From: a virus
IMG/VR virus record: IMGVR_UViG_3300042556_002406
Location: 1 to 20,990 of that record
Strand: one strand, 5' to 3'
DNA length: 20,990 nucleotides
Numbering within the stretch: the stretch's first letter is position 1; every line of letters starts with the position of its first letter. The notes under the pieces were generated by a model. That model saw nothing but the letters and a program-made list of their open reading frames with translations. It was not told the origin of the DNA and ran no database searches. Positions 9,158-19,869 of this stretch are shown in pieces. A program made the translations under genes and the position numbers.

Positions 9158-9522
9158 CGCACCTACAGCTACTGATCGAGTCGCAGCAGCGAGTCCTGAA
9201 ACTCGAGCGCCACATCGGCCAAATCAACAAGGGCATCGATGTCGTTGATGTGCTTCACAAGCAGATCAGCGCATACCAGAAAGAAATCAGGAGGCTACTC
9301 AATCGGCTATTTCGTTATTCGATGGATGATGGCACTGAGCATCAACATCGTTATGCTCTACTGGTACCTAGCCTCGAGACCAAGGGCGAGGGTCGATACA
9401 CCACCATCACGACCATGGCAGACAAAGAGGAGGCGCTCAGCCTCGCGCATGAGATGCTCACGCTCTACGACTTACACTGCGAAGTCATGGATACCGAGAC
9501 GCAGAATCTCCTAGATACCTAG
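9154..9522 (+). CDS. coiled-coil plus small alpha/beta protein, unknown function
   Basis: A 122-aa protein read from ATG 9154, coupled to DUF3310 by ATGA and with GAGG upstream. Residues 1-50 form a long amphipathic helix likely to be a coiled coil (LLIESQQRVLKLERHIGQIN, then KQISAYQKEIRRLLNRL). The rest (60-122) resembles a small domain with YTTITTMADKEEALSLAHEM. This is the last plus-strand gene; its TAG shares the bases CTAG with the convergent methyltransferase stop. Function unknown. Confidence 0.65.
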   Translation: MTHLQLLIESQQRVLKLERHIGQINKGIDVVDVLHKQISAYQKEIRRLLNRLFRYSMDDGTEHQHRYALLVPSLETKGEGRYTTITTMADKEEALSLAHEMLTLYDLHCEVMDTETQNLLDT

Positions 9523-10106
9523 TCTCGACGCAGCACGGTAAGACCATTGTTGTTCTGGCGGATCAGCTCGATCCGCCATTTATTATTTGCATCTATGAAC
9601 TCGTCAATAGCCATCAGCAGCCCTGCCTTGCCAGCATAGGTCGGCCTAGCCAATGGCGAGGCATGAGGGTAGATAGGCTCATCCTGATGACCGTAGGTCA
9701 CGGTGTCATGTAAGATAATCACGCCATTTTTTCTTATGCGATCGGCGTGTTTTGCGAGCTCGCCGCGGAGCTGAGCATAGGTGTGCAACGTGTCAATAAA
9801 TAGCAGATCGGTCTCCTCCATCACACTCATCGTCAGCACATCGGCCCGCCGAAACTCATACTCGATGCCAGCAGATGCCGCGTGCTCAGCTACTAGGCTC
9901 GTGTCCACATGCACGATGTCATAGCTGATCATGCGCTGAGGCAGCCCCGCCAGCAGAGCCCACGTGGAGATCACGCCACGCACGCCCATCTCGGTGATGT
10001 GCTCCTGATTCCAGGCATAGTCGCGCAGGATGCTGAGATGCTGGTTGATGTCGCTCGGCGTGTCCCGTACACGGGCATACTCGGTCAGTATCGACATGAT
10101 GGTCAT
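9519..10106 (-). CDS. class I SAM-dependent methyltransferase (Methyltransf_24-like)
   Basis: A 195-aa protein. TEMGVRGVISTWALLAGLP (38-56) is the SAM-binding E/D-x-G-x-x-x-G loop of motif I. SYDIVHVDTS supplies the acidic residue at the end of strand 2. DLLFIDTLHTYAQLRGEL (100-117) with VIILHDT (129-135) is the FIDxxHxYxxxxxDL/HD signature of the Methyltransf_24 group. Such enzymes often methylate sugars or small molecules in glycan clusters. It overlaps the upstream glycosyltransferase by ATGA, which suggests both modify the same glycan, on a virion protein or the host surface. It is the last gene of the minus-strand late cluster. Confidence 0.82.
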   Translation of the reverse strand: MTIMSILTEYARVRDTPSDINQHLSILRDYAWNQEHITEMGVRGVISTWALLAGLPQRMISYDIVHVDTSLVAEHAASAGIEYEFRRADVLTMSVMEETDLLFIDTLHTYAQLRGELAKHADRIRKNGVIILHDTVTYGHQDEPIYPHASPLARPTYAGKAGLLMAIDEFIDANNKWRIELIRQNNNGLTVLRRD

Positions 10107-10822
10107 CTCTGCACCGGAAGGTAGTCCGTGTACTCGTACGGCCAGTGCGGCGTGAGCTCGACGATGCCGCGTGTGGTGTTGTGCAGTCGCAGATGATTAG
10201 CAGCCATCTCGCTGACGATGTTGGTGCTCCACCCTGATGCGTGATAGCCTCCAGACGTGCCCCAACGATAGATGTAGAACCTATCCTTGTCCTCGATCTC
10301 CTGCGTGATGGTGCCGTATTTCTTGCGCAACTCATCAAATAACAGAACGTCTATTGATCCGCTATCTCTGACCTCGCTGTATCTGCCGATTGAGTCAAAT
10401 ACTTCACGACTCATCATCAGGTTGCAGTGGTAGAGATTGCGGCTTGCTGTAAGCTTGTGCGCGTCCTCCTCGAACCATGCGCTAGCCGTGTGGTAGATGC
10501 GATTACTGTCGAGATGCTCGACGCTGTAGCTCAGCCGCCACGGCAGATAGATGTCATCATCTTCCCAGATCGCTAATAAGTCGCCGGTGGCCATGGATGC
10601 AGTCGCGTTGAACTTTGCCCCAAGCGGCCGGATCTGATCTGCCACGTTGTAGATCTTGACCTGCGGGTGATCGTAGATCAGCGTCTGATCGCCGTAATCG
10701 TTAAGGATTATCAGCTCTTTCTCGCCTGCGTAATCCTGCCGTAGAAACGACTCGATAGCATGCTCGAGCTGGCGAGGCCTGCCATATGTCGGGCATAGGC
10801 AACTGATCTTTGGCAGCGTCAT
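10103..10822 (-). CDS. family 2 glycosyltransferase (GT-A fold)
   Basis: A 239-aa protein. The start KISCLCPTYGRPRQLEHAIE (5-24) and ELIILNDYGDQ are the nucleotide-sugar-binding half of a GT-A domain, and LLAIWEDDDIYLP (82-94) carries the metal-binding acidic cluster E87-D90 (DxD equivalent). HCNLMMSREVFDSIGRYSEV resembles the acceptor region. The normal catalytic features appear present; the sugar and acceptor are unknown. GGTGAG two bases before the start supplies the ribosome binding site, and the gene begins just after HNH. Coupled to the methyltransferase, it may build a methylated glycan on a phage structural protein or on the cell surface. Confidence 0.88.
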   Translation of the reverse strand: MTLPKISCLCPTYGRPRQLEHAIESFLRQDYAGEKELIILNDYGDQTLIYDHPQVKIYNVADQIRPLGAKFNATASMATGDLLAIWEDDDIYLPWRLSYSVEHLDSNRIYHTASAWFEEDAHKLTASRNLYHCNLMMSREVFDSIGRYSEVRDSGSIDVLLFDELRKKYGTITQEIEDKDRFYIYRWGTSGGYHASGWSTNIVSEMAANHLRLHNTTRGIVELTPHWPYEYTDYLPVQR

Positions 10823-10825
10823 AAC

Positions 10826-11176
10826 TCACCCCTGAGGTCGTGATCGTACTCTCTCGAGCCATGTCGCGGCATCGACTCTCACTAGCGGATTGTGGCTGCG
10901 CCAGTCTGAATAATGGCCAAAAATGAAATGGCAATCCTCGCACAACGTCATGAGATTGCCGGGTGCCAGCTCGAGCTCAGGATGCAGGTGATAGGGCATC
11001 ACATGGTGTACCTCGAGCGAGGTGACACGATCACATGCCTCGCATTTCTGCTGCTGCTCGAGGTGCTTGCGCCTTACAGCTGACCATCTTGGAGATCGAG
11101 GAGTGCCGCCGTAGACATCTGCCACGCCGGGCGATGTCAGCAGGCGATCGAGCCAGCGAGACAATGCGTTAAACAT
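10826..11176 (-). CDS. HNH endonuclease
   Basis: A 116-aa protein read from ATG 11176 (GAGG six bases upstream, overlapping the previous stop by eight bases); the longer form from 11194 has no ribosome binding site. It contains CEACDRV (C45, C48), SLEVHHVMPYHLHPELELAP (53-72) with the H57-H58 pair, and GNLMTLCEDCHFIFGH with N74, C79, C82, H83 and H88: a complete beta-beta-alpha-metal HNH site with its zinc cysteines. Late-cluster HNH proteins are usually packaging partners of terminase, but here it lies between an unknown protein and glycosyltransferases, so it may be free-standing. Confidence 0.88.
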   Translation of the reverse strand: MFNALSRWLDRLLTSPGVADVYGGTPRSPRWSAVRRKHLEQQQKCEACDRVTSLEVHHVMPYHLHPELELAPGNLMTLCEDCHFIFGHYSDWRSHNPLVRVDAATWLERVRSRPQG

Positions 11177-11474
11177 TGCTTGCCTCAAGCACATGAGTGC
11201 GGATCAGGTCAGTGCAGAACTCGGCCAGCATGCGCCAGCCGTGACCGTCTGGGTACTCAGGATCGGCGAGAATGGCATCACATACCTCCTCAGCCCACAC
11301 CCGTAGCAGTTTAGGATCGGGAATAGCTTGGCCCGGCTTTACCTTGATGGCTTGGAGCGTGTGTGCCTTGACCAGCGCCTCGCTCAATACTGTAGTTGCG
11401 CTAGTCAGACAGAGCTGAGACCATCCCTCCTGCCCGCGCGCCAGTCGTCGTACTCGCTCGATGTGCTCGACCAT
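11169..11474 (-). CDS. helical protein of unknown function
   Basis: A 101-aa, predominantly helical soluble protein with an AGGAGG ribosome binding site. No export signal or transmembrane segment. Notable stretches are RVRRLARGQEGWSQLCLTSA (7-26) and PKLLRVWAEEVCDAILADPE. It lies directly after the C1A peptidase and before HNH. It could be an accessory to either; nothing recognisable. Confidence 0.65.
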   Translation of the reverse strand: MVEHIERVRRLARGQEGWSQLCLTSATTVLSEALVKAHTLQAIKVKPGQAIPDPKLLRVWAEEVCDAILADPEYPDGHGWRMLAEFCTDLIRTHVLEASNV

Positions 11475-11483
11475 ATCAGCCTC

Positions 11484-12380
11484 CTATATGATCCATGAGA
11501 TCTTGCGTGTCGGGAATCCCTCGACGTTGCTAAATATCCAGCAGTCGCCAGACTTGAGCATCGCCTCGATTGTGCTACTCGAGGCATAAAATCCTTCTGG
11601 CCCAGGACTGCCCGGTCCTACTGGGCCAGTGTGCGACGATGCGCCCCAACTGTTATCGATGCGCCCATACTCGCGGCCAGTGATGGTTGCGTAACCGCAG
11701 AGACACATGCAGTGCTGCCACGTGCCAGCGGCCATGGCGATGCCGTTGGTGTCTCGAGTCATCGTGAATCCCTGCGACGAGCACATCGCTATGCCGTAGC
11801 CGTTGGCCAATGCTTTCTTCGCATCGACCCATGTGCGCACTCTCGTGACGGCTCGCACCGGGTGGATTTTCGCAATCTGCTCAAGCTCGAGGGGCACACC
11901 TTTACTGCCATACTCACGACATCGAGACTCTGAGTACTCACGCAGGTCGATGCCCAGATACTCCTCACGGCCAAGCACGCCCCAATCTCTCACCCAAGCC
12001 GCAGCATTAGCGCCGATCGCACCATCACCGCGAATACTGCCACCACCTACCTCGACGCGGGCACCGCCGTAGATCGGCTCAGTTGCGAGCGGAATGTACT
12101 GCTCAGACTCGCCAGCGACGATCTCGGCGCACATGGTGTACTCAATGGCGCGAGCAGTGCCGAACGCAACGCAAGAGCCAACCTTGCCCTGATTGCGTGG
12201 AGGCAGGAGAGCGCCAGTTGCCTTGCGAGCGAGATCCCAGAGATAGACGTGATCGGGCAGATCCTCGATAGGAGTCGAGCCGATAGGCGTACTACTGATG
12301 TCTGCATCAACGCAGGTTGCGACGATGTCATCGACTGCCTGCTTGTCGTCTACCCATCCCGGCACATACTGGCTATTCAT
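11484..12380 (-). CDS. papain-like (C1A) cysteine peptidase
   Basis: A 298-aa protein with all four landmarks of peptidase family C1: RNQGKVGSCVAFGTARAIEY (62-81) has the oxyanion-hole Q64 and nucleophile C70; WQHCMCLCGY (221-230) has catalytic H223; and RIDNSWGASS (240-249) has N243 in NSWG. It has no signal peptide, and the 50-residue N-terminal extension is shorter than the usual inhibitory propeptide. PVGPGSPGPEG (253-263) is a collagen-like loop after the active-site Asn. C1 peptidases are rare in tailed phages; possible jobs are virion maturation, degradation of a host surface protein layer at entry, or lysis. It is coupled by ATGA to the secreted protein encoded upstream. Confidence 0.9.
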   Translation of the reverse strand: MNSQYVPGWVDDKQAVDDIVATCVDADISSTPIGSTPIEDLPDHVYLWDLARKATGALLPPRNQGKVGSCVAFGTARAIEYTMCAEIVAGESEQYIPLATEPIYGGARVEVGGGSIRGDGAIGANAAAWVRDWGVLGREEYLGIDLREYSESRCREYGSKGVPLELEQIAKIHPVRAVTRVRTWVDAKKALANGYGIAMCSSQGFTMTRDTNGIAMAAGTWQHCMCLCGYATITGREYGRIDNSWGASSHTGPVGPGSPGPEGFYASSSTIEAMLKSGDCWIFSNVEGFPTRKISWII

Positions 12381-13298: not shown

Positions 13299-14168
13299 CT
13301 AGTCGTGAGTTTTGACGGCTGGCACATGGTCGTACCTGCCGTCGAATATTTGCGGGTAGATCTCGAGAACCTGCTGCTCAACCTCAAGCCGCTGAGCTTG
13401 AGGTAGCTTCCTGCCAAAATACTCTCTAAATTGGCTGATATTCCAGCCCATTTCATACGCGCCGATGAGATAGTTGCGTAGCTTGTCGTTGAGCGTCAGG
13501 CTGTACGGCACGGCACCAAATCGCGGGAAACGATGGCACCATCCTAGCCATGGCTGATATAAGACCTTGCCTCCATGGAGACGCACTTTGTCGTGAATGT
13601 AAACCTCTTCGCCAGCGAATCCGCGGAAGTGCTGCGAGAATTTTGGCCAGTCGGCCTTGCGCATAAACGACAGTGCGCTGCCATGGGCATGCACTTCGCG
13701 CGTCTCGCTGACCGGGTAGCGACTATCGACTAGCCACGTGCCGAAAAAGTCACCGCGTAGCTCGGGACTCAACTCGGTGGCGATGATATTGCCCGCCTCA
13801 GAGCGTAATGGCCCGACCCACATATCACGACCAACTGCGTCAGCGCGGGCAGCAGCTATCAGTGCCTCTACCGCTCCAGGCACGAGCAGGACGTGACAGT
13901 CGATGACGAGGACGTGAGAGCCCTGCGCATGCTCCCAGACGCTATTCTTGGCGTGCGCTGGCCCCATGGCTTTGGGCGCATGGACATATCTGGCTCGTGA
14001 ATTAGCGCAGACATGATGGATATCGCCACGATTAGGCTCGGGGTGATCATCGACGACCAGCAGCTCCACACCGTCGAGCTGGTGGTGCATGCGCAGAGAG
14101 GATAGGGTCCACCAGACGCCTTGCGGGTCGTCATAGGTTGCCATCCCGATCGTCAGGTCAATTTTCAT
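13299..14168 (-). CDS. glycosyltransferase with a DxH motif, polypeptide GalNAc-transferase-like
   Basis: A 289-aa protein from ATG 14168 (11-base overlap with the Cys-rich gene); the ORF extends to 14324, but that extension does not look like a GT start. DLTIGMATYDDPQGVWWTLS (4-23) and ELLVVDDHPEP (35-45) open a GT-A fold. GSHVLVIDCHVLLVPGAVEA (83-102) gives D90-C91-H92, a DxH metal motif where GT2 enzymes have DxD. GFAGEEVYIHDKVRLHGG and VLYQPWLGWCHRFPRF (184-217) follow the GGE...R...GG...P...GxxxR order of polypeptide GalNAc-transferases (GT27). This suggests O-glycosylation of Ser/Thr. The Thr-rich adhesin is encoded two genes upstream. Substrate and donor are inferred. Confidence 0.82.
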   Translation of the reverse strand: MKIDLTIGMATYDDPQGVWWTLSSLRMHHQLDGVELLVVDDHPEPNRGDIHHVCANSRARYVHAPKAMGPAHAKNSVWEHAQGSHVLVIDCHVLLVPGAVEALIAAARADAVGRDMWVGPLRSEAGNIIATELSPELRGDFFGTWLVDSRYPVSETREVHAHGSALSFMRKADWPKFSQHFRGFAGEEVYIHDKVRLHGGKVLYQPWLGWCHRFPRFGAVPYSLTLNDKLRNYLIGAYEMGWNISQFREYFGRKLPQAQRLEVEQQVLEIYPQIFDGRYDHVPAVKTHD

Positions 14169-14541
14169 CTTTCGCTCTCGGCTCGTAGTCATCGCAGGAA
14201 ACGCAGTTGCGATTGCTCTGATCCCGCGATGATATCCTACAGCGATCATGTCTACCACACACGTGCAGGATTGCCAATGTGCCACCGCATCCGCAGGAGG
14301 GCTTAGCCTCAAGGGCTTCGCCAAGATGCTGGCAGGGCGAGGCCATGTGTAGCTTGATTTTGCGCAGCATCTCGAGCTGGTCGGGATTTAGGCCCGGAGA
14401 TCTGTCAGGAGCTGGTGCATATGTCACCCTGCGGGCGTTCACATCGGCAGACCAGAGTTTGGCATAACGCTCATCATTCTGGCTCAGCCAGCAGATCCGG
14501 CAGCCATCGCGTGGCGTTGTATGCTTGCACGGCAAAAACAT
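14158..14541 (-). CDS. Cys-rich, probably zinc-binding small protein
   Basis: A 127-aa protein from ATG 14541 (GGAG five bases upstream), encoded between the adhesin and the DxH glycosyltransferase. It contains ten Cys: C5, C14 and C17 near the N-terminus (PCKHTTPRDGCRIC), and a dense C-terminal knot (C70, C83, C85, C95, C101, C113, C116) with CQHLG, CGCGG and CVSCDDY. The spaced pairs suggest two or more zinc sites; the C-terminal part would otherwise be disulphide-bonded if exported, but there is no signal peptide. Its position suggests an accessory of the glycosyltransferase or a chaperone for the Cys-rich adhesin. I recall similar Cys-rich ORFs beside glycosyltransferases in metagenomic phages. 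Confidence 0.68.
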   Translation of the reverse strand: MFLPCKHTTPRDGCRICWLSQNDERYAKLWSADVNARRVTYAPAPDRSPGLNPDQLEMLRKIKLHMASPCQHLGEALEAKPSCGCGGTLAILHVCGRHDRCRISSRDQSNRNCVSCDDYEPRAKDEN

Positions 14542-14543
14542 CG

Positions 14544-16442
14544 TCACTCCGTGATCGTGTAGTAAATCAATCCATCGGTTGCGCCGTAGTTCCAAGTATA
14601 AAATCCATCTATAAATGAACCAGCAAATGTAAATTCAGCCACGCTAAAACTACCAGAATAACTAACCGGATCGCACGAGTCAAAAACACAATTGCCTTTA
14701 TATGGATCATATTGGTCGATAAGACCGCATCGATTTAAAAAGTTTTTCATAGGCAAAACACTGCACATGTTGCCTATACCCATTCCTTGACTTGTTCTCT
14801 GATATGTCCCAATCGATGCATAAACACCAAATTCAAATGGCTTTTTCTGAATAGTTTCATTTTCACAAATGCAATTATTGTAGATAGGCGTTGCCGCGTA
14901 TCCGCCGGTTGTTCTAACTCGGTAACCATACCCGTAACTTTTTGGGTTTATATTAAAAGCAGTTATCCACAATGTCTTTGGCACGCCGGGCGAAGTGCCG
15001 TGATAACCGGGGATTCCACCACATGCGGTATCGCATCTAAATCTGATGGGGTCTCCAGTTGTTGAATTAAAAATGCTTGGCGCGCAAGCAGGCACCTCGA
15101 CCATAGCACCAAGCGTGTAGGCAGGACGTGGTTGGCTATCTTGCGCAGGCCTAATCAATGTCAGCGTGACGCCGTCCATGCAAGGCCAGACGCCGTCATC
15201 ATCATGGAATGTGACAGTCAGCGTATTAGGCCTGCGCTTGGCCACGCCACTATCATCGCACCACCACCTATCGGCGCAGCCGCAATTGGTGCAATCGATT
15301 TTGCCACAGTTGGTTGTGGTAATTTCGTTGTCTGTCGTTCCAGGCGTTGTGGGATAGATACATGAGCATTTTCTATATACAAAATTATTGCCAACTTGAA
15401 CAACTGACCGACATTTATTCCAATCCTGATAACTACCTGATGCCCCATAAGGCACCCATTGATTGCTTACTGCCGACCATCGCCAAGTACATGTGCCAGC
15501 GCATGGTGGCTCGGTAGATGTCGTCGTAGTGACTTGAGGATAAACGGTTGTGCCACATGGGGCATAGACACGCCATTGAGCAGGTGCAGAGAAACCATAA
15601 GCCGGTTGATTCTGCAAGTTGCAAGTGCATGTCCCTATGCAATCATTTGTGACAGATACGGAATTTGTTGTGCCATTAGCGTAGTACACATCTCTAATGC
15701 AGCATCTGTCAGCGCATGGCGTTGTCGTTGTTGTCGTCGTGCTAGTCGTCGTACTGGTTGTTGTGCCAGTACCAGTGCTGGTAGTCGTAGTTGTCGTTGG
15801 TGCCGCGGTCGTGGTAGTAGTAGTTGTCGGTGGCGTGCTTTGGCAGCTAGCGCTCACGTACTCATTGACAAATGCCCCTGCTCTGGCAGGCGGCGATCCA
15901 CAGTAGCACCCGTCTGGACATGCGACAGCGCTAACCCATGCGCTACCATTCCATCGATAAATACATGTCTGATATTCGCATGCTCCCGGCGTGCTGCTTG
16001 TGGTCGTGGTCGATGTGCCGACGCATGATGTCGTGGCAGTCTCGCCCTCGGTTGTGCCATCATATGAGGGACTTGCGCAGGTACATCCCTCGAGGCAAAT
16101 AGCCACCGAGACCCACATGCCGGACATCCACACGTAGCTACATCCAGAGTTCTCGCATGTCGGCGTGGTGGTCGTGCTGGTCGTTGTCGGCTGGACAGAG
16201 TCTCGGCAGCTCTCGACTGCTACCGCGCCTTCGATGCCTGGGGTCGATGGCACCCAGCAGAAACACCCTGCGCCACAGTTGCCGGAGACAAGCAACCATG
16301 AGCCCATAGTCCAGATGTAGATACACGAGTCAGGACACGGAGTTGTTGATGTTGTCGTGGTCGTGCTGGTAGTCGTGCTCGAGGTTGTCGATGACGAGCT
16401 ACTACTCGACGTGCTCGAGGTCGTTGGCGGCATTGTGCTCAT
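14544..16442 (-). CDS. mucin-like Thr/Ser-rich, Cys-modular adhesin or tail fibre
   Basis: A 632-aa protein of alternating Thr/Ser-rich linkers (about 5-35, 85-94, 143-152, 202-241, 305-310) and five Cys-rich modules (C36-C79, C96-C140, C155-C200, C243-C296, C314-C379). Modules 1-3 share the frame C-x3/4-C-x-Y-x-W-x5-W-x5/6-C-x2/3-GC-x-C...C, so they are homologous repeats; 4 and 5 diverge. The linkers resemble O-glycosylated mucin stalks and the Cys pairs are probably disulphides. Residues 400-632 form a different, less Thr-rich, AT-richer receptor-tip-like domain. Encoded between tail and glycosyltransferase genes, it is probably a tail fibre or virion decoration exposed to solvent. No family name is recognised. 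Confidence 0.75.
   Translation of the reverse strand: MSTMPPTTSSTSSSSSSSTTSSTTTSTTTTTSTTPCPDSCIYIWTMGSWLLVSGNCGAGCFCWVPSTPGIEGAVAVESCRDSVQPTTTSTTTTPTCENSGCSYVWMSGMWVSVAICLEGCTCASPSYDGTTEGETATTSCVGTSTTTTSSTPGACEYQTCIYRWNGSAWVSAVACPDGCYCGSPPARAGAFVNEYVSASCQSTPPTTTTTTTAAPTTTTTTSTGTGTTTSTTTSTTTTTTTPCADRCCIRDVYYANGTTNSVSVTNDCIGTCTCNLQNQPAYGFSAPAQWRVYAPCGTTVYPQVTTTTSTEPPCAGTCTWRWSAVSNQWVPYGASGSYQDWNKCRSVVQVGNNFVYRKCSCIYPTTPGTTDNEITTTNCGKIDCTNCGCADRWWCDDSGVAKRRPNTLTVTFHDDDGVWPCMDGVTLTLIRPAQDSQPRPAYTLGAMVEVPACAPSIFNSTTGDPIRFRCDTACGGIPGYHGTSPGVPKTLWITAFNINPKSYGYGYRVRTTGGYAATPIYNNCICENETIQKKPFEFGVYASIGTYQRTSQGMGIGNMCSVLPMKNFLNRCGLIDQYDPYKGNCVFDSCDPVSYSGSFSVAEFTFAGSFIDGFYTWNYGATDGLIYYTITE
15720..15839 (-). 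repeat. degenerate ACN-codon tract (Thr linker) of the adhesin
   Basis: Forty consecutive codons are almost all Thr with Ser, Ala, Gly and Pro, giving a degenerate trinucleotide repeat at DNA level. A second copy with a related AAP-TTT core lies at about 16446-16520 in the preceding gene. Shorter tracts occur at about 16330-16430, 16160-16190 and 15985-16015. Such tracts could recombine with each other and vary linker length or module number. Confidence 0.6.
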
Positions 16443-16975
16443 TACCCACCACCCGTCGAGGTCGTGCTAGTTGTCGTTGGTGCTGCGGTACTGGTCGTCG
16501 TAGTGGTCGTTGTAGTCGTGCATATATTTGCACCGGGAATACAGAGTGTCGTCCAGTTAGGCAGCATCTCGCCATCGACACATTGCAGGGATGTAACTAC
16601 GTCGATCGACAGGATTGTGCCACCACCGCCACCAGAGAGAATAACCATGTACACCGGATTGCCGTAGCTGTTAATCCCCGCGTACCGCCCCAAGTATCTT
16701 TGCACTGACGGCACACCACCGTTGATGTCCTTGATTTTGATATCGACATCGTCGGTCCACGTGTCGGTATCGGCAACGTAGGTCAGCAATTTACCCGGAT
16801 AGTAGCCTGATGTTGGCGTTGTCGATGTGACACGCACCACATGCACGATCGGGTAACTTGGCCCGGATCGAGGCATGACGTTGCGGTCACGATTGCCAAG
16901 ATTGCCCGCCTCATAGTCACGCAGGAGCGTGGCGAGGCGCGCGATTGATTGGTCGTCTAGGAGATAGCCAGCCAT
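16442..16975 (-). CDS. probable tail/fibre-base protein ending in a Thr-rich stalk
   Basis: A 177-aa protein with AGGAGG ten bases upstream. Residues 1-35 are helical and charged, and about 40-150 are beta-rich with Tyr/Gly/Asp loops (YYPGKLLTYVADTDTWTDDV, LSGGGGGTILSIDVVTSLQC). The last 26 residues (152-177) are a Thr/Ser run ending in Gly. That run continues in a different frame, across a TAATG junction, as the N-terminal Thr/Ser run of the large adhesin. A short capsid-proximal collar bearing the same stalk type is one reading. No recognised family. Confidence 0.65.
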   Translation of the reverse strand: MAGYLLDDQSIARLATLLRDYEAGNLGNRDRNVMPRSGPSYPIVHVVRVTSTTPTSGYYPGKLLTYVADTDTWTDDVDIKIKDINGGVPSVQRYLGRYAGINSYGNPVYMVILSGGGGGTILSIDVVTSLQCVDGEMLPNWTTLCIPGANICTTTTTTTTTSTAAPTTTSTTSTGGG

Positions 16976-16989
16976 CGTCTACGGGCCTC

Positions 16990-17889
16990 CTAGAGTGCTG
17001 GGAATGCAACGCGCGGATAGATATGAAATGTGTTAAACACTGGCGTTCCGCCACCAGCTAGCACGCCACCAGATCCGTCAAGATTGACGGGCACAGATAC
17101 GGGGACACCGTTAATATCGATAGGAGTACGAGTGCCTCCTGATTTTTTAAACATGCCCATATCGGCGACAACGTACGCCCAACCAGCAGGGCGATATTCA
17201 AAGACTAGCGTCCAGCGCCAATAACTGACGTTGTTCTCATAGACCAAGTTTGCACTAACACTATTGAGCTTGGCGAGTGCCGTGCCGATCACATATGGCC
17301 CAACAGTGTACGAGCTGGAGTTGATATAGCCGATTGCGCCGATCCATGCCGCAGATGGTGAGCTTGTAGAGTTGAGCCCTACCGTTATCGTTGCGCCCCC
17401 TTTGACAATCTCAGCAGGTGGCAAATATGGATCGTCGGCACTATTTTTGATGAGGTTATTGTTGCGATCATACGTAACTGCGAGCGGGTATGAGATCGTC
17501 GAGACGCTGTAGTCTCTCGGCCTCGATAGCGGGCTCTCCACACGATCCGCGGGCGCTTGCCCAGTCTGCTGAGTCTCGACGGCAGGGTCGCCGGATGGCG
17601 CAGATGCTGCCGATGGTGCATCGACGTTGTAGCCATAATTGACGCTAATTCGCCATAACGTAGGGTCGCCCTGATCCTGAGACGGGCTAATGCTCAGGCA
17701 GTACGCGTTGGCATCCTCATTGTGCGCTGAGAATATGACCGGCAGCGATGGATGCGATGCTGCGTACGCTGGCCCGTATGTCGCAGCGTCAGTGCGCACC
17801 AGAAATACACGGGTGTAGGTGCGATTGAATTTCTGATCGACGGATGCAGTGCGCCCTTCGGCGACCTCGGTAAACAGTGTATATGCCAT
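16990..17889 (-). CDS. structural-type phage protein, unknown (baseplate/tail region)
   Basis: A 299-aa, beta-rich protein encoded directly after the tape measure gene, with GGAGG nine bases before the start. It has no signal peptide or membrane segment. It is rich in Ser, Ala, Tyr and Pro with a low-complexity linker (SAASAPSGDPAVETQQTG, about 93-110). Gene position after the tape measure is where distal-tail or baseplate proteins lie in siphophages, so a tail-tip role is likely, but no motif confirms it. Confidence 0.6.
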   Translation of the reverse strand: MAYTLFTEVAEGRTASVDQKFNRTYTRVFLVRTDAATYGPAYAASHPSLPVIFSAHNEDANAYCLSISPSQDQGDPTLWRISVNYGYNVDAPSAASAPSGDPAVETQQTGQAPADRVESPLSRPRDYSVSTISYPLAVTYDRNNNLIKNSADDPYLPPAEIVKGGATITVGLNSTSSPSAAWIGAIGYINSSSYTVGPYVIGTALAKLNSVSANLVYENNVSYWRWTLVFEYRPAGWAYVVADMGMFKKSGGTRTPIDINGVPVSVPVNLDGSGGVLAGGGTPVFNTFHIYPRVAFPAL

Positions 17890-17898
17890 GTCGCCTCC

Positions 17899-19869
17899 TT
17901 ATTTGGGGATGACCAGAGTGCCGGGCTTGATGATGTTGGCATTCTCCGCTGCTTTGACGAGACGTGCCATTTGCACGGCTTGGATCGCATCTTGTCGCGC
18001 AGCCTCAGCGGCAGCAGCGACCAATTGTTTCTGTGGGTCTACATTTGCATTAATCGACTCGACTCTCGCCCTGATCTGAGCCTCAGCAGCACCGGCAGAG
18101 CCAGCCACAAACGCCTGCGCAGTGCCTGCCTGGGGCGTCGCAAATTGCTTGATCATGTCTTGGAGCTGCTTGCCGACGACTCTAGTTTGTGCTGCTCGCA
18201 ATTTGTCCGCGGATTCCTTGCTGCCCTTGGCTGCCTGCGCCATCATCGATTCGAGATTGCCGGTCATCTCGGCGAATTTCTCGGTGATGGTCATATTGTT
18301 ATTTAGTATAGTCGCGGTCAATTTGGCGTTGTCTTTGGTGGCAAGCTCTAAATCAAGATTAGCTTTTTTCTCATTCTCAGCTTGCTCTAGAGCAAATTGA
18401 GCGTTGAGTTTTTGCTGATATGCAAGATTCTTTGCGTTGACCGCAGCCTCCTCGGCACTGACTCCTACTTTGGGCAGCTCATTATTGAGTTGCAAAAATG
18501 ATGACATCGCAGAAATCAAAGCAAGATTTGATTTTGACGCTATCTCTTTCTCAAGTTTTATTTGAGCTCGCACCTCATCGCCAATCGTCATCTGCCCTGG
18601 TCTATTTGGATCGACACGCGGTCCTTTGACAAAATCTCCAACTGCCATAGTCATGGCCTTGCCAATCTCAAATGGCGCGGTGACGACTGTTGTAGCGGCG
18701 GTGGTTGCGACCTTGCCTGCGGTCATGCCTTGGTAGTCCTGCATCAATTTGCGTATGCCAGCAACTACCTCGTCAAACATGCCCTTTAGCTGAGTAATAC
18801 CCTCGACCAATTTATTGACAACATCCTTGGCAATCTGTTTGCTCGACTCAAATATAGAGGCTAGCCCTGCTGCTTTATCTTTGGGGTCAACCACAGGCAA
18901 GAACGCCGCGGCGATCTCTTGCACGACTTCTTTGACGCCCTGAAACGCACCCTTGAGCGCAGAAAATGCCTTCTCTGGCTGTAATATGGCAAGCATCTGC
19001 TTGCCTATTTCTGTGAGCAGATCATTGAAGCCAGACGACAATTGTCGCAATTGCCCGTCAAATGACGCACCAAATGCTTCAGCGGCTGCCTTAGCCTCTG
19101 GTGAATTGCTCGCTCTGAATACTGCGCGTACTGCCGTTGCACTGCTCACCGAGCCTTGTTGCACGGCAGCCATTGCCTCCTCGACTGAGTAGGCATTGCC
19201 CGTGACTGCCTCGAGCTCTTGGGCAAGTGCCTCAAATACTTTCAGCCCGCCTCTTTGCAATGTTTTGAGCGGCCCGTCAGTGGCGATGGCTGCGCCACGG
19301 ATCTCAGTGATTGCCGCAGCAACTGCCTGAGCACCAGAAGCTCCACCACCGAGCAGCTCGATGGCGTTGCCAGCATTGGCTAGGATTGTCGATGCGCCTG
19401 CCGTGCTTATGCCAGCAGCCGTGAATTGTTCAAATGCCTTGGCCAGATCCTGCAATGGCACGCCACTGCTGCTGCTAAGGTCGCGTAGATCCTTGATTAC
19501 TTTATTGCCAGCCTCGATTGATTTGGCAGCGTACTGAGCTCGTATCGTCATGGTCTCAAGAGCGCCACCCATCTTTAAAATGGATACGGCACCTTGGATG
19601 GGTAGTCCAACAAAGAATTGGAACACGCCGCGTGCCATGTCCAATAGGCCTTTGACATCGTTCAAAGATTTCAGGCCTAGTGACTCTGCTAAGTTTAGTT
19701 TTTTCTCGCCTAGTTTGTCTTTTTCTTTCTTCAGCGCTTCAAGCTCTTCTTTAGTTTTCTTTGCTTTGTCGCCTACATTCTTGAGGTCTTTGCTGGCATC
19801 GGCAGCGCCCTTAGTCAGCTCAGCGCCCTGCCATGCCATCTGTACCGAGAGCTTAGCGATACTAGCCAT
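17899..19869 (-). CDS. tail tape measure protein
   Basis: A 656-aa protein. Residues 1-100 start MASIAKLSVQMAWQGAELTK then a Lys/Glu-rich coiled coil (KKTKEELEALKKEKDKLGEK). A helical, hydrophobic middle follows, with Ala/Gly-rich stretches (about 160-260 and 370-400) typical of tape measure proteins, which contain membrane-active segments. The first coiled coil and position directly after the tail assembly chaperones are the established order G, GT, tape measure. Length sets tail length at roughly 1.5 angstrom per residue, so about 100 nm if that rule holds. It overlaps the end of the T frame by eight bases (GGGAG upstream). Confidence 0.82.
   Translation of the reverse strand: MASIAKLSVQMAWQGAELTKGAADASKDLKNVGDKAKKTKEELEALKKEKDKLGEKKLNLAESLGLKSLNDVKGLLDMARGVFQFFVGLPIQGAVSILKMGGALETMTIRAQYAAKSIEAGNKVIKDLRDLSSSSGVPLQDLAKAFEQFTAAGISTAGASTILANAGNAIELLGGGASGAQAVAAAITEIRGAAIATDGPLKTLQRGGLKVFEALAQELEAVTGNAYSVEEAMAAVQQGSVSSATAVRAVFRASNSPEAKAAAEAFGASFDGQLRQLSSGFNDLLTEIGKQMLAILQPEKAFSALKGAFQGVKEVVQEIAAAFLPVVDPKDKAAGLASIFESSKQIAKDVVNKLVEGITQLKGMFDEVVAGIRKLMQDYQGMTAGKVATTAATTVVTAPFEIGKAMTMAVGDFVKGPRVDPNRPGQMTIGDEVRAQIKLEKEIASKSNLALISAMSSFLQLNNELPKVGVSAEEAAVNAKNLAYQQKLNAQFALEQAENEKKANLDLELATKDNAKLTATILNNNMTITEKFAEMTGNLESMMAQAAKGSKESADKLRAAQTRVVGKQLQDMIKQFATPQAGTAQAFVAGSAGAAEAQIRARVESINANVDPQKQLVAAAAEAARQDAIQAVQMARLVKAAENANIIKPGTLVIPK

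Follow-up and report, generated by a model that had tools for sequence, protein, structure and literature searches.

A six-cysteine module on threonine/serine-rich linkers, encoded behind phage tail genes and beside a glycosyltransferase

Mucin-type stalk proteins and the linkers of fungal cellulases share a simple design, in which Thr/Ser/Pro-rich linkers run between small compact Cys modules. The viral protein described here resembles them in its Thr/Ser-rich linkers between such modules and differs from them in coming from a virus of a bacterial host, in showing no sequence match to them and in that its glycosylation is one we infer. A second point of comparison is provided by phages whose glycosyltransferases (GTs) are thought to glycosylate virion proteins. 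For mycobacteriophage Maravista, GTs of the phage have been proposed to glycosylate the capsid (PMC11256854). Both cases involve GT genes of a tailed phage and a structural protein as the proposed target; in Maravista the proposed acceptor is the capsid protein, whereas in our virus it would be the Thr/Ser stalk that bears the Cys modules, whose gene lies beside the GT or is fused with it. Tail adhesins and glycosylated virions are already known kinds of phage feature, and what is new here is the domain family and its GT partner; an abstract-level survey of the literature found no description of an arrangement of a module stalk with a GT.

The module-bearing gene and its tail neighbourhood

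The window, that is, the whole stretch of DNA analysed, is a virus record of 20,990 bases from IMG/VR, and its features lie on the minus strand unless stated otherwise. Genes for the tail tube, the tail assembly chaperone and the tape measure protein (17899–19869; TMP_3 match, 1.8e-13) are followed on the same strand by two further genes and then by the module-bearing gene (14544–16442), so that the link to the tail proposed in a preliminary description of this DNA was borne out. The tail-tip position after the tape measure gene, expected of tail fibres and receptor-binding proteins, was found in the window and in the related locus L103. Between the tape measure and the stalk genes lies a tail gene with no family match (16990–17889), and the next gene upstream of the module gene (16442–16975) encodes a tail protein with its own Thr linker at its end. 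The TAA stop of this gene overlaps the ATG of the module gene (TAATG), a junction at which two Thr linkers meet, and similar overlaps occur in many relatives. The overlap suggests coupled translation. A programmed frameshift joining the two genes was considered since the Thr linkers meet there; coupled re-initiation is simpler because the stop and start codons overlap.

Downstream of the module gene, a small Cys/His-rich protein (14158–14541, with the start at 14541 chosen by hand) showed no Pfam match and has a homologue with 37% identity in L103. It is followed by a GT2 glycosyltransferase, the conserved partner of the module gene (13299–14168; Glycos_transf_2 match, 3.8e-10), whose likely start at 14168 was set by hand within a longest ORF extending to 14324. 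Farther along are a second GT2 gene (10103–10822), co-linear in several diverged phages, and a Methyltransf_24 methyltransferase (9519–10106), a relative of which is fused to a GT2 in the Gemmatales genome G471. Two other genes of the window deserve mention, namely a papain-family cysteine protease downstream of the tail genes (11484–12380; Peptidase_C1, 8.2e-9; 98–99% identical in relatives) and, on the plus strand, a CsrA-like ORF (1705–2061; 4.4e-5, 23.8 bits, under the cut-off of 27), a possible phage-encoded translational regulator.

The module-bearing ORF comprises 632 amino acids, and relatives of it are known. Its translation shows three close six-cysteine modules and two diverged ones with Thr/Ser-rich linkers between them, the residue positions being taken from alignment and profile output and from hand counting. 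An N-terminal Ser/Thr linker (residues 1–35; 16338–16442), whose length differs among relatives, precedes M1 (residues 36–79; 16206–16337), M2 (residues 96–140; 16023–16157) and M3 (residues 155–200; 15843–15980), each with six Cys, M3 being the member modelled with AlphaFold2. A long Thr linker (residues 201–242; 15717–15842) leads to M4 (residues 243–296; 15555–15716), where the Trp pair is absent and C-x3-C-x-C and a last Cys are kept, and then comes M5 (residues 314–379; 15306–15503), which carries an insertion of about 16 residues. The remainder (residues 380–632; 14547–15305) is a variable, Cys-containing C-terminal domain, with a variable middle framed by conserved strands; the model of this tip was of low confidence (pLDDT 44), too poor for a structure search. 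Thr and Ser make up 28% of the whole ORF, and extended Thr/Ser-rich segments are present, as expected of a mucin-like protein.

The A2 profile scored M1, M2, M3 and M5 at 44, 42, 45 and 13 bits, respectively, and did not list M4 at 10 bits or above. At the position equivalent to M5, other phages carry a canonical module (38–41 bits with the same profile). The DNA core patterns matched M1, M2 and M3 in the window and were absent from all 100 shuffles run for each pattern. The claim of three near-homologous and two diverged modules on Thr/Ser linkers therefore stands on the translation, the profile and the shuffles, with M4 assigned by eye alone. The consensus given for the module in the preliminary description, C-x3/4-C-x-Y-x-W-x5-W-x5/6-C-x2/3-GC-x-C, was correct as far as it went and left out an invariant sixth Cys about 18–20 residues past C-x-C. 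A chance or low-complexity ORF was also considered and ruled out, the pattern being absent from shuffles and conserved in many phages.

Spread, fold and relations of the module family

A protein search of IMG/VR with the module-bearing protein returned nine loci that were 81–100% identical. The core DNA pattern found 27 stretches and a second spacing 23, many of them on the same contigs, with L044 as the sole new true module locus from the second spacing, judged by its ORF context. The ORFs at these matches encode a wide variety of proteins, each carrying between one and seven modules, and the phages concerned reach 224 kb in size. Across 30 diverse aligned modules, six Cys and one Trp were invariant; a second Trp and single Pro and Gly positions were nearly so, and no His was conserved. 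AlphaFold2 on this alignment predicted a three-strand core with a pLDDT of 87 and a pTM of 0.63. As the preliminary description had required, the module has homologues in many other phages and a confidently predicted, foldable beta core. The module is a real, widespread and previously unnamed domain family. Small ORFs with a diverged module (15–17 bits) were also seen directly upstream of the module gene in L032 (5447–5641), L015 (5864–6289) and L035 (1086–1523).

Modules and C-terminal domains reassort between phages. Across six relatives of the window lineage, M1–M3 are 93–98% identical, the C-terminal domain 72–77% and M4 63–100%; L015 and L031 have a common C-terminal domain and different modules, and in L032 a module is carried by the upstream tail gene itself.

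No credible match was obtained for the whole protein or for its modules in Pfam, PHROGs, PDB sequences or the annotated phages of INPHARED, or in NCBIfam, where the modules alone served as queries. The best values among the 30 modules, 0.025 for PHROGs and 0.76 for NCBIfam, do not amount to family membership, and a profile search of the PDB gave 0 matches at E ≤ 10. The earlier statement that no family could be recognised was upheld, in that the module is new in the libraries searched. Foldseek against the PDB and BFVD returned nothing at E ≤ 0.001, a result that says nothing either way on the novelty of the fold.

VWC domains have a pattern of aromatic spacing together with C-x2-3-C-x-C. The modules share with VWC-like domains and with the tick protein CirpT1 (PDB 6rqj) a small Cys-rich beta domain, a similar aromatic spacing and C-x2-3-C-x-C, and CirpT1 (6rqj_D) was the sole chain with Z ≥ 2 among 30 that were re-aligned, a weak likeness (Z 2.9, TM 0.47, rmsd 3.4 over 41 residues). 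The CirpT1 authors reported that its sequence resembles VWC domains and that Dali gave beta-microseminoprotein as the nearest fold (PMC6955305). This neighbour, and a TILa (PF12714) match at 0.044 in one of the 30 modules, would fit a distant membership of the modules among the extracellular Cys domains of the VWC/TILa group. We regard this as improbable: the VWC profile (PF00093) gave no match at E ≤ 10 in any of seven records, VWC is absent from the families matched by the 30 modules, TILa matched one of seven records at E 1.87 with 12 bits against a cut-off of 27, and the PDB profile search was empty. The modules differ from VWC-like domains in occurring in phages, on Thr linkers and beside GTs. 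By sequence, VWC membership finds no support, and a structural likeness as weak as this one speaks neither for nor against it.

The six Cys might instead bind zinc. Spacings such as C-x2-3-C-x-C can do so, phages assemble in a reducing cytoplasm, and zf-RING_16, a RING-like family, matched two of the 30 modules weakly (best 0.19). We give this reading little credence, as the invariant Cys come without a conserved His, six Cys suit three disulphides and matches to zinc families did not rise above noise.

Glycosyltransferases beside and within module-bearing proteins

A GT2 homologous to that of the window lies downstream of the module gene throughout the window lineage (87–100% identity) and in L012 (57%), L019 (58%), L018/L026 (66%) and L103 (57%), with more distant homologues in L021 (34%) and in the chromosomal locus L098 (30%). 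The linkage was also recovered in the reverse direction. With the GT as the sole query, IMG/VR yielded 39 viral loci, 11 of which were too short upstream for the test. In all 28 with at least 1500 nt upstream, many of these being close relatives or contigs already found, a module ORF ended at most 409 nt before the GT or overlapped it. Eight of these 28 GTs are 53–66% identical to that of the window (L162, L163, L166–L168, L170–L172), and among the 11 short loci, L154 carries a module ORF and L145 and L148 the C-terminal end of a stalk. We told nine viral lineages apart by eye (the window, L012, L019, L018, L016/L103, L021, L022, L044, and L171/L172 as one), two of which have no adjacent GT: in L022/G004, with the module on a Gly/Ser linker, nine GT queries found no GT in 19 kb, and in L044/G002 a GT9-type gene lies about 7 kb downstream of the module gene. 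The module gene and the GT are tightly conserved partners. In L126, a single protein (9779–11605) combines GT2, Methyltransf_24 and DUF6171, and the last of these may be the counterpart of the window's small Cys/His-rich ORF.

Fifteen module loci were found in planctomycete chromosomes (G001, G327, G448, G471, G450, G409, G407, G493, four in G408, two in G406, and one cluster in G403), several of them among phage-like genes by our reading of the ORFs. A genome pattern scan gave 39 stretches, of which L074 alone was module-like in context, the others lying in chance-looking frames; weak profile matches were left out of the counts, namely G172 (E 7.7e-4, two stops) and the single matches from the phyla to which G501 and G500 belong (L133, L134), both judged to be ordinary frames on reading. 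A GT was fused or nearby in 14 of the 15 loci, one of them by a weak match. In G001, the tail protein that bears the modules also contains a fused GT25 domain; in G448, a GT25 lies two genes on; G450 has a fused GT8 at 0.0014, under its cut-off; and the other GT-bearing loci have GT2, about 1.2 kb past the module ORF in G403 and with a Methyltransf_24 domain in G471. No GT was found on the 5.3-kb contig of G493. Because these genomes hold 21–51 GT2 matches in 5.5–12.4 Mb, a gene picked at random would, by our arithmetic, have a GT2 within 3 kb in roughly 1% of cases. In G327, the module protein lies beside a fusion of GT2 and Fringe/Galactosyl_T (L106; G327:C1:1328000-1346000), together with a giant GT/methyltransferase/TPR protein and a GT4-type protein; with many glycosyltransferases around, this locus may be cellular, a glycoprotein locus.

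The linkage bears on two further explanations. On the first, the modules are carbohydrate-binding heads of a lectin- or CBM-like kind, the linkers are plain flexible spacers and the GT has an unrelated task; repeated small aromatic-rich modules on linkers recall the CBM1 of cellulases and comparable designs, and the invariant Trp, if exposed, could stack on sugars. However, family and fold searches gave no module match pointing to a lectin or CBM, Foldseek included, and the 28 of 28 GT linkage and the fused GT25 would be left unexplained, making this reading unlikely. Alternatively, the GT might act on the host surface, for superinfection exclusion, or on some other component of the phage, and have no more than an operon in common with the stalk; there are well-known phage GTs that act on host O-antigen or on DNA, and the type of GT differs between loci. 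This is a distinctly unlikely account, given that the link holds specifically for the module gene even where identity falls to about 30% and that the GT25 of G001 is part of a module-bearing tail polypeptide, which argues against host-surface modification as the main role of the GT.

Host range and a proposed role in the virion

The module profile matched 10 of 102 genomes of the order of a Gemmata genome at E ≤ 0.001 (eight at ≤ 1e-4), the larger size of these genomes favouring matches there somewhat. At similar depth, there were none in 102 genomes of the order of a Hydrogenophaga genome and none in 98 of the phylum of a Verrucomicrobia genome. A broader, shallower search of the phylum of Gemmata matched 3 of 392 genomes. 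Two other such searches gave 1 of 379 and 1 of 390, and both matches were judged false on reading. We infer the planctomycete assignment of the chromosomal loci from L074, a locus of a Gemmata sp. The virus probably infects planctomycete bacteria, with Gemmatales as likely hosts; to our knowledge, viruses of Gemmatales have hardly been studied. Three points go beyond the preliminary description: the adjacent or fused GT, the way in which modules and C-terminal domains reassort, and the probable planctomycete hosts.

We propose, with a probability of about 60%, that the gene encodes a tail-attached adhesin in which a dedicated enzyme O-glycosylates the Thr/Ser stalk, the disulphide modules act as spacers or as heads for binding, and the C-terminal tip is variable. 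The stalk would be mucin-like, with small beta modules, each with three predicted disulphides, strung on Thr/Ser linkers. The GT2 encoded downstream would place an O-linked sugar on these linkers, and the second GT2 and the methyltransferase may extend or cap the glycan; a finishing role for the methyltransferase is suggested by the related domain fused to GT2 in G471. As the cytoplasm of assembly is reducing, the disulphides would need to form after lysis, when the module Cys would pair up. The variable C-terminal domain probably contacts the host, and reassorting modules and tips would tune reach and specificity towards planctomycete (Gemmatales) cell surfaces. Counted against the stalk reading are this late formation of disulphides, the lineage in which no GT was found (L022/G004), the GT about 7 kb away in L044/G002, the absence of any known family that would support a lectin or adhesin function, and the low pLDDT of the tip. 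Since the GTs span three families (GT2, GT25 and, weakly, GT8), the chemistry and the acceptor are unconstrained. The wider formulation, to which we would give slightly less than an even chance, is a self-contained 'phage mucin' system of planctomycete phages and prophages. In it, a tail stalk of the new six-Cys modules strung along Thr/Ser cords, with its own O-glycosyltransferase adjacent or fused, would give the virion an adhesin with a tunable coat of glycans, and modules, tips and sugars would all reassort.

If true, this would give a role to an unnamed domain family, show that viruses of bacteria have a counterpart of mucin stalks together with an enzyme dedicated to it, and offer a marker for phages of Gemmatales. 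A tight pairing of enzyme and acceptor would also supply new Thr/Ser glycosyltransferases together with their natural substrates.
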